Below, piece by piece: positions 13,345 through 16,345 of a stretch of 64,000 nucleotides of DNA (position 1 is its first letter; each line of letters begins with the position of its first letter). The notes beneath the pieces are model-generated. The model made no database searches, was not told the DNA's origin, and saw nothing but the letters and a program-made list of their open reading frames with translations. The stretch comes from an uncultured Pelagibacteraceae bacterium (GTDB taxonomy: Bacteria > Pseudomonadota > Alphaproteobacteria > Pelagibacterales > Pelagibacteraceae), in assembly GCA_902626575.1 (NCBI GenBank), contig CACOFY010000001.1, positions 248,001-312,000 of the forward strand, given 5' to 3'. The translations under genes and the position numbers were made by a program.

Positions 13345-13429
13345 GGGCGAATGGCGGAACTGGTAGACGCGCACGACTCAAAATCGTGTTTCGCAAGAAG
13401 TGAGAGTTCGATTCTCTCTTCGCCCACCA
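13345..13429 (+). tRNA. tRNA-Leu (anticodon CAA)
   Basis: An 85-base gene with a perfect 7-bp acceptor stem (GGGCGAA at 13345-13351 with TTCGCCC at 13419-13425), discriminator A and encoded CCA (13427-13429). The anticodon stem CACGA/TCGTG encloses CTCAAAA, giving anticodon CAA. It has a class II variable arm and a T arm GAGAG-TTCGATT-CTCTC. The 3' end lies only 6 bases before the ATG of the acyl-CoA synthetase gene. Confidence 0.97.
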
Positions 13430-13435
13430 AGTTAA

Positions 13436-15139
13436 ATGGAATTAAAAAAAACAAATAATTTAGTTGAACTATTTTTTGAAAAATATAAATCTCAAAAAAA
13501 AGACGAGATACTCTTAACAAGTTTAAAAAATTTAGAAAAAACTTATTCTTGGGAACAAACAAAAAATGCAATAATCAATCTTTCCTCAGAAATATCAAAA
13601 TATATTAAAAAAGGTGATAGGTGCTTATTGATCTCAGAAAATAGGCCAGAGTGGTTTATATCTGACTTATCCATAATGTTATCAAATGGAATAACTGTGC
13701 CAGCGTACACAACATATATAGAAAAAGATTATGAATATATTATTGATGATTGTAGGCCTAGCATAATTTTATTTTCAAATAATGAACAATACCAAAAAAT
13801 AAGAAAAATTATTAGTCAGAAGGATTTTATAAAAAAAATTTTCTGTTTCGATAAATCCAAAGAAATTAATAATAAAGATTATTTATACTTAGATGATATT
13901 TTAGGAAAATCTAATTTGGATTATAATAGTTTACCAAGTTGTGAATTATTAAGGAAAGATCCAGCTTGTATAATTTATACATCAGGTACCCAAGGAAATC
14001 CCAAGGGTGTAATGTTAAGCCATGGAGGAATATTAAGTAATTGCTCAGGAGCTTTAAATTTACTCTCAACTTTAATTCTAGAAAAAACTCGTTTTCTGAC
14101 TTGGCTGCCTCTTTCACACTCATATGAGCATACAGTTCAATTTGTACAAATTTCACTAGGTGCTCAAATTTTTTATGCAGAAAGTATTGATAAATTAATA
14201 AAAAACATGAACGAATGTAAACCACATATAATGACAGCAGTGCCCAGATTTTATCAAAATCTTTTCCAAAAGATAAATTCTAATTTTAATAAAACAAAAG
14301 GTATAAAAAAAATTTTAATAAAAAAGACAATAGACTTAGGTTTGAAAAAAATAAAAAAAAATAAAATTGGGTTTATTGACAATATTTTTAATAAAATTTT
14401 AGATGTTTTGGTTAGAAAAAAAATTAAGAAACAATTTGGAGGATCTTTAAAAACTTTCGTTTCCGGCGGGGGTGCTTTAAATGTAGATATAGGATTATTT
14501 TTAAATTCCATAGGTTTACCAACTCTACAAGGTTATGGATTAACCGAAACCTCACCAGTTGTAAGTTGTAATCCTATAAATGATATAAGAGTAGAAACTG
14601 TAGGTCCGCCATTTAATGAAAATCAAGTAAAAATAGCCGAAGATGGTGAAATTTTAGTTAAAGGAGAAAATGTAATGTTGGGTTATTGGAACAATGAGAT
14701 CGAAACCAAAAAAATTTTAGTAGATGGCTGGTTGCATACAGGAGATATTGGCAAATTTGAAAACAATTATTTAATCATAACGGATAGAAAAAAAGATATT
14801 TTAATCACTCCTGGTGGTGACAATATTTCACCATCAAAAGTTGAAACAGAAATTACAAATTCAGATTTTGTAGATCAAGCTATTGTTTATGGAGATAATA
14901 AACCATTTTTAGTTGCATTAATTGTACCAACAGAAGAAAAAAAACACACATTTGATAAAGATTTTGAAAAAGAATTAGAGAAAATAAATAAAAACTTAAC
15001 AAAAATAGAAAAAATTAAAAAATATTTTGTTATTAATGAAAAATTTTCAATTGAAAATGGAATGTTAACACCAACATTAAAACTTAAAAGATATAAAATT
15101 GTTAACATGTACAAAAAAAAATTTGAAAATTTATATTAA
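13436..15139 (+). CDS. Long-chain acyl-CoA synthetase (AMP-forming)
   Basis: ANL-superfamily ligase that activates fatty acids to acyl-CoA through an acyl-adenylate. The 567-residue protein contains the P-loop-like YTSGTQGNPKGVMLSHGG (about 181-198), LTWLPLSHSYEH (about 222-233), the adenylation motif GYGLTETSPV (about 365-374), LHTGDIG (about 430-436) and TDRKKDILITPGGDNISP (about 446-463). It belongs to the FadD15/eukaryotic-like branch rather than E. coli FadD. The start ATG lies 6 bases after the CCA of tRNA-Leu, so the mRNA is probably released from a tRNA-mRNA transcript. Its 3' end is followed by the unit of the small basic peptide. Confidence 0.92.
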   Translation: MELKKTNNLVELFFEKYKSQKKDEILLTSLKNLEKTYSWEQTKNAIINLSSEISKYIKKGDRCLLISENRPEWFISDLSIMLSNGITVPAYTTYIEKDYEYIIDDCRPSIILFSNNEQYQKIRKIISQKDFIKKIFCFDKSKEINNKDYLYLDDILGKSNLDYNSLPSCELLRKDPACIIYTSGTQGNPKGVMLSHGGILSNCSGALNLLSTLILEKTRFLTWLPLSHSYEHTVQFVQISLGAQIFYAESIDKLIKNMNECKPHIMTAVPRFYQNLFQKINSNFNKTKGIKKILIKKTIDLGLKKIKKNKIGFIDNIFNKILDVLVRKKIKKQFGGSLKTFVSGGGALNVDIGLFLNSIGLPTLQGYGLTETSPVVSCNPINDIRVETVGPPFNENQVKIAEDGEILVKGENVMLGYWNNEIETKKILVDGWLHTGDIGKFENNYLIITDRKKDILITPGGDNISPSKVETEITNSDFVDQAIVYGDNKPFLVALIVPTEEKKHTFDKDFEKELEKINKNLTKIEKIKKYFVINEKFSIENGMLTPTLKLKRYKIVNMYKKKFENLY

Positions 15140-15230
15140 ATTCTAATTTAAAAACCGTTTATTAATCGCATAAACTCTTATTTATTTAACTAAACTAAAA
15201 AATTAATTAAAAATAATTTTTTACAAATTA

Positions 15231-15248
15231 AATTACAAATTTGTAATT
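15231..15248. repeat. Perfect 18-bp palindrome, possible operator
   Basis: AATTACAAATTTGTAATT reads the same on both strands. It ends 10 bases before the predicted -35 box of the basic-peptide promoter, a usual place for a regulator site. It is not purely A/T, having one C and one G. A binding protein is not known and chance in AT-rich DNA is possible. Confidence 0.45.
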
Positions 15249-15258
15249 CATTATATAT

Positions 15259-15287
15259 TTGACATATGTAGATAAAAAAAATAAAAA
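15259..15287 (+). promoter_or_regulatory. Predicted sigma-70 promoter of the basic-peptide gene
   Basis: A perfect -35 consensus TTGACA at 15259-15264 is followed 17 bases later by TAAAAA (15282-15287), a moderate -10 box. Transcription would begin near 15294, giving a leader of about 45 bases. The leader holds a small hairpin (stem GCGAA/TTCGC, 15299-15316) and then a good Shine-Dalgarno sequence at 15328-15333. Confidence 0.5.
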
Positions 15288-15339
15288 TAAAGTTAATAGC
15301 GAATCAATTGTTTCGCAAAACAAAAAAAGGGAGCTAAAG

Positions 15340-15408
15340 ATGGCTAAAAGAAGAAAAAAAGCTAAGAAAAAAGCTAAAAAGAAAGCTAAAAAAAGAAGAA
15401 GAAGATAG
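15340..15408 (+). CDS. Tiny Lys/Ala/Arg-only basic peptide, histone H1-like
   Basis: A 22-residue frame I found by eye. After the initial Met-Ala it contains only Lys, Arg and Ala: the opening is MAKRRKKAKKKA, an A-K-K-K/A-K-K repeat follows, and it ends in four Arg. It resembles the KA-rich tails of histone H1-like bacterial proteins, so nucleic-acid binding is the likely property. Support for a real gene: AGGGAG at 15328-15333 with 6-base spacing, a TTGACA-type promoter upstream, and a strong terminator 13 bases after the TAG. No function is known to me. It could instead be an sRNA of about 165 bases. Confidence 0.7.
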   Translation: MAKRRKKAKKKAKKKAKKRRRR

Positions 15409-15420
15409 TTTTCTTATATA

Positions 15421-15462
15421 AAAACGCTTCTCATAACTTTTGTGTGAGAAGCGTTTTTTTTT
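15421..15462. terminator. Strong bidirectional rho-independent terminator
   Basis: A perfect 13-bp stem (15421-15433 with 15445-15457, AAAACGCTTCTCA/TGAGAAGCGTTTT) and an 11-base loop run into nine T on the plus strand (15454-15462). On the minus strand the same stem is followed by a run of five T, so it can also end carD transcription. It is the clearest terminator in the window. Confidence 0.9.
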
Positions 15463-16345
15463 ATTCTTGTTCTTCCTCTACCACCGAAACATCATCACTA
15501 TCAGTACTTTCAGTTGGAACTGCTTGCTTAGTTTCAATTTTCGGCGTTTGACTTTCTAAATTTCTTTTAAGTGCTTTATTTAATTTTTTCTGCGTTTCTT
15601 CTGAAGAAATATTTAAAATGATTTGAAATTCAGATGACATTCTTTCATAAGCTTTTTCAAAAAGTTGTCTTTCACTGTATGATTGATCTACCATTATATC
15701 ATCACCCTTATTCAAATCTCTGACAACCTCAGCTAATTCATAAATTTTACCTGATGTAATCTTTTGTTCATATTCTTGTGCTCTTCTACTCCACATAGAT
15801 CTCTTTATTTTGGGCTTACTTTTTAAAATAGATATACATTTATTAACCTGGTTGATAGTAGACAGCGGCCGTAAAAATGATTGCTTATTTATTGGTAAAA
15901 GCCCAACAGCTTTATCCTTTTCAAATTTGATATCATAGCATTGTACCTCAATGCCACCGATAGTTTTTGCACTAATTGATAAAATCTGTCCAACTCCATG
16001 CTTAGGGTAAACAACATAATCTTTTGGTTTAAATACTTTTTTTTCTGTTTCTTGTTTTTTAATTTTTTTGATCTCTGGTTTTAACTCATTTTGTTTTGAA
16101 ATTCTTAAACTTACACTTTTCTCAGGTTCTTTAATCTTAGCTATATTTTTTTTTTTGAGATTTTTTAATTTTTTAACTTTTATGGAATTTTTAGTTTTTT
16201 TAACTAAGACTTTTTTTACTTTTTTTACTTTGATTGATTTCTTTTTGACTACTTTTTTTTTAAAGGTTTTCTTTAAAATATTTTTTAAATTTATCTTCTT
16301 CATTCTCGTACTTTTTGTGATCCGCGGGTGGATCTTTTTTTTCAC
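15461..16345 (-). CDS. CarD/CdnL-family transcription regulator with Lys-rich N-terminal tail
   Basis: CarD proteins bind the RNA polymerase beta subunit and stabilise open promoter complexes. The CarD domain starts near residue 105 with [17 protein letters not shown] and ends near 265. It includes the DNA-contacting [13 protein letters not shown] segment (about 197-209). Before it lies an unusual tail of roughly 100 residues made mostly of Lys with Val/Ile. The C-terminus is acidic (SVVEEEQE). The start is uncertain: ATG at 16345 overlaps fdxA by 86 bases, and ATG at 16303 (Met15) overlaps by 44. It is the last gene of helicase-TerB-fdxA-carD and ends in the shared terminator. Confidence 0.88.

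Follow-up and report, generated by a model that had tools for sequence, protein, structure and literature searches.

Bacterial proteins that resemble the tail of histone H1 are the closest described counterparts of the gene that we report here. One report, in the part consulted, likens the KPAA-rich C-terminal region of AlgP to an H1 tail and describes it as DNA-binding (PMC9239181); another, likewise in the part consulted, describes Hc2 as binding DNA and as varying in length by Lys-rich repeats (PMC2848022). For SAR11 bacteria, an intergenic survey of strain HIMB5 includes, in the portion available to us, at least three small open reading frames of unknown function (Stav et al. 2019; PMC6429828). 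Our gene may be among them, in which case it has been noticed before; carD, fadD and arginine have no occurrence in the main text of that survey, as far as this portion goes. Likewise, carD and small protein do not occur in the main text that we could consult of two Pelagibacter papers (PMC2704228, PMC5069961), and the titles and abstract openings listed by searches of the SAR11 literature, mostly non-subscription, held no account of this gene.

The window, a 64,000-nucleotide stretch of DNA from an uncultured Pelagibacteraceae bacterium, carries on its forward strand a 22-residue frame, MAKRRKKAKKKAKKKAKKRRRR (15340–15408), which comparative evidence indicates is a real, conserved gene. As the first-pass annotation had stated, the peptide consists solely of Lys, Arg and Ala after its Met; it is the one frame of at least 21 codons in the window with only these residues, against none in 60 first-order Markov controls. 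A Shine–Dalgarno sequence, GGGAG (15329–15333, +), lies 6 nt 5' of the ATG, and a leader hairpin, GCGAATCAATTGTTTCGC (15299–15316, +), lies further upstream, both as that annotation had claimed. Its promoter is borne out in part: the −35 box TTGACA is present at 15259–15264 (+; scan match 10/12), and the putative −10-like hexamer AAAAAT (15283–15288, +; spacer 18), a call of the promoter scan alone, is weak. Similarly, an intrinsic terminator is present at 15420–15458 (+), with an A tract 5' and a T tract 3' of the stem, and the scan gives it 16 pairs rather than the 13 originally proposed. A 16-pair stem followed by a T run is expected 0.0 times in shuffles, its stem is kept with different letters among the aligned relatives listed, and it probably serves both this gene and the convergent gene downstream. 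The latter is carD (15461–16345, −; PF21095 and PF02559), which has a Lys-rich N-terminal extension, and the gene upstream, outside the unit, is a fadD-like AMP-binding acyl-CoA ligase (13436–15139, +; PF00501), so that Pfam domain matches agree with the flanking genes named at first pass. A tRNA-Leu gene (CAA; 13345–13429, +) ends 6 bp 5' of the fadD-like gene.

The perfect 18-bp palindrome that had also been counted as part of the unit, AATTACAAATTTGTAATT, is indeed found at 15231–15248, and the role suggested by its position is not supported. Among 193 distinct leaders, one has its letters and four have any perfect palindrome of at least 18 bp; the near-identical unit of genome G034 shares the letters with the window. 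The window holds four palindrome centres of that size, compared with a mean of 1.0 and a maximum of 4 in Markov controls. We therefore ruled out the palindrome as an operator, because it is not conserved and its size is not very rare here.

A search at the same junction of other SAR11 genomes, of the kind proposed in the first-pass annotation, revealed that carD, where complete, has a convergent Lys/Arg-rich neighbour frame at 229 of 233 loci of the order. These are loci rather than genomes (208 distinct CarD sequences, 204 of them with the frame) and a non-random sample, most having been fetched because they match the unit and 45 of the 229 through a leader model. The family and order names used for relatives (Pelagibacterales) are our assignment, drawn from named records that carry the unit, which also agree with a SAR11 origin of the window. 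The stop codons of unit and carD lie 35–191 bp apart (median 60; 229 loci). By contrast, no Lys/Arg-rich frame was found opposite carD at 28 loci from elsewhere in the Alphaproteobacteria, two of them with less than 150 bp of flank; these loci scored best among 125 such genomes that match CarD. When loci of the order were fetched through carD itself, with carD complete, 10 of 12 had the unit; in the other two (L163 and L173), the contig ends 134 and 66 nt past carD. The two further loci of the 233 that have no unit are L289, which has different DNA there, and L103, in which a longer A run breaks the frame (L103:1501–1606, −), through either assembly error or real loss. Where at least 1 kb of flank is available (201 loci), the next gene upstream is fadD-like in 192; because eight of the nine exceptions belong to the sister family described below, carD and not fadD is the lasting partner. 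In the order, the N-terminal extension of CarD is Lys-rich: K and R make up a median fraction of 0.40 of residues 1–90 of the open frame (233 loci), compared with 0.10–0.39 at the 28 loci of other Alphaproteobacteria.

Other searches gave a similar distribution. Looking for the start pattern of the peptide in named genomes returned at least 118 stretches; among the matches listed, carD was present in 105 of 118 fetched stretches and convergent in 104 of those 105, and 73 of 80 titles named Pelagibacteraceae, Pelagibacterales, SAR11 or Pelagibacter. Four viral contigs matched the start pattern and none carries this gene. On a 43.6-kb IMG/VR contig, L295:816–926 (+) encodes a 36-aa peptide, MAKKRKKAKAKAKKKVKKAKAKARKIKRKSKRKSRR, of like composition and with a different leader. 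In genomes of the order drawn regardless of the unit, the leader RNA model matched 307 of 397 at E values up to 1, some weakly and with just three sister-family genomes among the 307 (E 0.3 to 0.9); of genomes at least 90% complete, it matched 127 of 151. Nine genomes of the same family had no match or a poor one: seven of these also have no CarD match at E 1e-6, in G004 a contig edge leaves the 3' part of the unit, in G342 carD runs off the contig, and missing assembly is the likely cause. The 22-aa peptide as query (E up to 10) matched 46 of 197 genomes and the unit DNA matched 90 of 101, many of these peptide and DNA matches being short and A-rich; at E 1e-19 or better, the unit DNA matched 48 of 61 genomes of the same genus.

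At the DNA level the 229 units fall into 127 distinct frames, which encode 85 distinct peptides. Pairwise comparison of distinct frames of equal length shorter than 115 nt (724 pairs), with start and stop codons left out, gave a pN/pS of 0.35 in the coding frame and of 0.96 and 0.88 in the other frames (0.31, 0.95 and 0.91 with the stop codon counted). A low pN/pS confined to the coding frame shows that the reading frame is under selection. All distinct frames start with ATG except one of the 127, which starts with GTG, and each of 191 distinct leaders has GGAG, GGGG or AGGA at most 16 nt from the start codon. The first-pass view of a stand-alone unit for a Lys/Arg/Ala peptide, kept by selection, is thus upheld by both its presence in 229 of 233 loci and its in-frame pN/pS of 0.35. 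One outcome that it had named as its refutation was an RNA structure kept while frame or Shine–Dalgarno sequence was lost; we found frame, Shine–Dalgarno sequence and leader all conserved. Distinct peptides of up to 40 aa contain 1,064 Lys, 466 Arg and 358 Ala among 1,999 residues, of which K, R, A, T, P, S and G account for 1,993 and acidic residues for 2, and their net charge is at least +16. Of the 85 distinct peptides, 77 start with M-[AP]-K-[RK]-[RK]-K, and six of the remaining eight come from the sister family; in every peptide, Lys or Arg fills at least three of the last four positions, and the Lys/Ala middle between these ends varies in length. Given such fixed basic ends and a variable middle, charge and spacing, rather than fold, seem to be under selection in these sequences.

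Peptide length differs by clade. Most of the window's family has 21–35 aa (up to 35 aa in other named SAR11 records), and one clade of it has 31–58 aa. A tree of CarD (99 rows; quick method without bootstrap; long branches to the outgroup) separates a sister family from the window's family, and within the latter it shows a clade of 13 rows with 31–58 aa and two other branches with 21–32 aa, without fixing the order of the three. Forms that contain Pro occur in one clade; the window peptide has none. In the sister family, eight of nine loci carry a Lys-rich frame in this position, each preceded by TTGACA, CGAATCA with its inverted repeat, and a Shine–Dalgarno sequence (8/8); a stem followed by a T run comes after six of the eight, and L168 and L170 have a stem without a long T run. 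The product has 76–91 aa, with one of 40 aa, and starts with MEELKVIFAKARKKAKKKAAPKKK (or MEDLK..) before running into KKAAPKKK-type repeats. The N-termini of the two families differ, MEELK or MEDLK in one and MAKRRK in the other, and CGAATCA lies at an equal distance from TTGACA in both. On the basis of the convergent place and the shared leader, and not of an alignment, we regard the sister-family gene as a probable orthologue of the window gene. No outgroup has the gene, so the tree cannot tell lengthening from shortening; we infer that the long form was reduced to the small one. Composition alone is no proof of descent from an H1-like protein, Lys/Ala-rich sequences arising repeatedly. Longer MAKKRKKAAKKK..APK products also occur in marine metagenome-assembled genomes, at L193:4436–4642 (−; 68 aa), L192:736–837 (+; cut off) and L243:7345–7512 (−; 55 aa), these loci including two contigs of one assembly labelled Pelagibacteraceae. 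CGAATCA is absent from the 110–130 nt upstream of these products, and L243 also has no carD match.

The most uniform part of the unit is its leader. Among 191 distinct 95-nt leaders, all contain CGAATC and 190 contain CGAATCA (15300–15306, +, within the hairpin in the window); dropping the loci found through the leader model leaves CGAATC in 160 of 160. TTGAC[AT] is found in 182 of the 191, and in 181 of these 182 it lies 39–42 bp upstream of CGAATC, which would place CGAATC near base 5 of the transcript if transcription starts at the usual distance. In 178 of the 191 leaders, the predicted fold pairs five or more bases of CGAATCA. In examples from genera g10, g12 and g15, the predicted stem shifts to other arms, such as CACTTAAA..TTTAAGTG and CACATAAT..ATTATGTG, and CGAATCA stays; because the arms move while the motif does not, the evidence for the sequence element is stronger than that for the stem. 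In 52 sequences, leader-stem covariation was 0.103 against 0.098 in shuffles, the observed score being reached by 117 of 500 shuffles, and this lack of covariation above shuffles follows from a leader sequence that is nearly invariant; two of the 52 show a two-sided A–U to G–C change and 16 a G–C to G–U change. The exact CGAATCA..TGATTCG is present in 18 of 61 relatives, in each at one place, this unit.

The element contains GANTC, the CcrM methylation site (15301–15305, +, in the window), which is half as frequent in the window as expected from dinucleotide shuffles (94 against 185). GANTC methylation has been measured in Pelagibacter and linked to the cell cycle, according to the part of the source consulted (PMC9516812). 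Among 31 relatives, 28 have a GcrA family match, in a search that also matched the unrelated control genome of Sulfolobus acidocaldarius, and 29 have a match to the RAMA domain, which is found on CcrM. The C and A that flank GAATC are conserved as well, and CcrM alone would not need them. These observations allow, as a possible addition, expression that is timed to the cell cycle through the leader GANTC; more generally, the leader could stabilize the mRNA as a hairpin near its 5' end, be a target of the peptide or bear a methylation mark.

Searching the class for the leader pattern gave matches in 9 of 240 genomes. Three of them have a Lys-rich gene (G000, G103 and G109) and were rejected as instances of the unit outside the order, as they belong to the window's genus or family. 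Two others, from one genus, lie before an S13-like frame, presumably ribosomal protein S13 (rpsM), one lies before a 354-aa frame and three have no start codon within 25 nt. In L300 and L301 (1501–1580, +), from another alphaproteobacterial genus, a promoter-like TTGACT..TATAAT..CGCGAATCA precedes the rpsM-like gene, at a spacing imposed by the pattern. With the sister-family protein as query, 2 of 240 class genomes gave matches (E 0.001 and 0.007; frames of 107 and 918 aa), which were not counted because neither has a stretch of at least 60 aa with more than 20% Lys.

We reasoned that the window peptide is a miniature, histone-H1-tail-like polycation that binds nucleic acid, most likely the nucleoid, a reading by analogy to which we give a probability of about 0.6. 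Nucleoid or RNA binding, one of the roles suggested at first pass, would thus remain the best reading, and it gains support from the H1-tail-like composition of the 76–91-aa sister-family product. According to this proposal, a stand-alone translated gene of the order would encode a polycation that, in the window's family, has mostly 21–35 Lys, Arg and Ala residues, with a basic N-terminus and a C-terminal Lys/Arg cluster. Having almost no acidic or hydrophobic residues, it would be expected not to fold alone and to bind phosphate backbones without sequence preference, thereby neutralizing and compacting the nucleoid. We infer this target, as we do the level of expression. Peptides of such composition can bind RNA as well as DNA, and RNA would be the second-best target; the nucleoid is favoured because the relatives are H1-tail-like. 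The CGAATCA hairpin near the 5' end would act as a cis-element for expression of the peptide, perhaps by stabilizing the mRNA or by carrying a GANTC mark for CcrM/GcrA timing. A more elaborate version is doubtful in our estimation: a minimal SAR11 chromatin peptide, the 21–35-residue remnant of an H1-like tail, timed to the cell cycle by a GANTC about five bases into its transcript and feeding back through its own near-5'-end hairpin.

Several other functions were weighed against nucleoid binding. The peptide could be a very small basic protein associated with RNA or the ribosome, sitting in rRNA or shielding mRNA or tRNA in the manner of bTHX, bS22 and eL41, which resemble it in size, charge and Lys/Arg richness. 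The exact leader hairpin, which in each of its 18 carriers among the relatives was found at no other gene, also recalls the autoregulated leaders of ribosomal proteins. Unlike those proteins, however, the peptide consists of K/R/A repeats of variable length and matches no profile, and a protein that docks in a fixed rRNA pocket would not usually range from 21 to 91 aa. Together with the H1-tail repeats of the longer relatives and the absence of a Pfam or NCBIfam match for the 22-aa peptide (a short query, which limits sensitivity), these differences make a ribosomal role unlikely. We think it still less probable that the polycation serves other phosphate polymers, as an organizer of polyphosphate granules or as a general, polyamine-like counter-ion. 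AlgP, which is H1-like with a Lys/Ala/Pro-rich tail, is described in the consulted part of its report as associating with polyphosphate granules (PMC9239181), but the neighbours seen here are carD and, in the window's family, the fadD-like gene.

The unit might instead produce mainly a structured small RNA, with the frame incidental; the first-pass annotation had allowed that it could also act as a small RNA. The leader element and the terminator are conserved, and the RNA fold z-score of 15291–15462 is −4.4; the terminator alone, however, accounts for −20.5 of the −41.6 kcal/mol of folding energy, about half, and no Rfam family reaches its gathering score in 14800–15900 (18 matches at E up to 10). 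With selection at the codon level confined to one frame and a Shine–Dalgarno match in 191 of 191 distinct leaders, an RNA as the main product is not supported, and we regard it as very improbable. A leader peptide or attenuator for a neighbouring gene, which a short frame behind a promoter-like site might suggest, has the smallest chance of all, as the gene order contradicts it: the frame is followed by a terminator and then by carD in convergent orientation (229/233 loci). Polycation binding to the nucleoid is the reading that we retain.

What is new here is the conservation across the order, the longer H1-tail-like counterpart in the sister family and the invariant leader with its GANTC. The gene is widely kept in very abundant ocean bacteria and no Pfam, NCBIfam or Rfam family was found for it; 22 codons would be too short for usual gene callers, and the tryptic peptides too short for standard proteomics. 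If the proposed function is true, few genetically encoded nucleoid proteins would be smaller than this product, which belongs to one of Earth's most abundant cell types. A series from a 91-aa H1-tail-like product down to 21 residues would bear on how short a chromatin protein can become under genome streamlining, and the invariant leader GANTC may offer a direct handle on cell-cycle control in SAR11.

Searches at E up to 10 matched the 22-aa peptide to no Pfam or NCBIfam family, and the longer relatives (five against Pfam, four against NCBIfam) to no H1-like model. With no curated profile match, we do not file the peptide as a member of an H1-like family and propose only that it works alike. 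Compared with the bacterial H1-like proteins of the Hc1/Hc2 and AlgP-tail type, it shares a Lys/Ala-rich, low-complexity polycationic composition (with Pro in longer members), a length that varies between relatives by basic repeats (21–91 aa in the order) and, by analogy, an expected binding to nucleic acids; the 76–91-aa sister-family product is akin in composition to the AlgP tail. It differs from them in having mostly 21–35 aa in the window's family, with no extra domain and no Pfam match, and in being encoded by a gene that has its own conserved leader and sits opposite carD.
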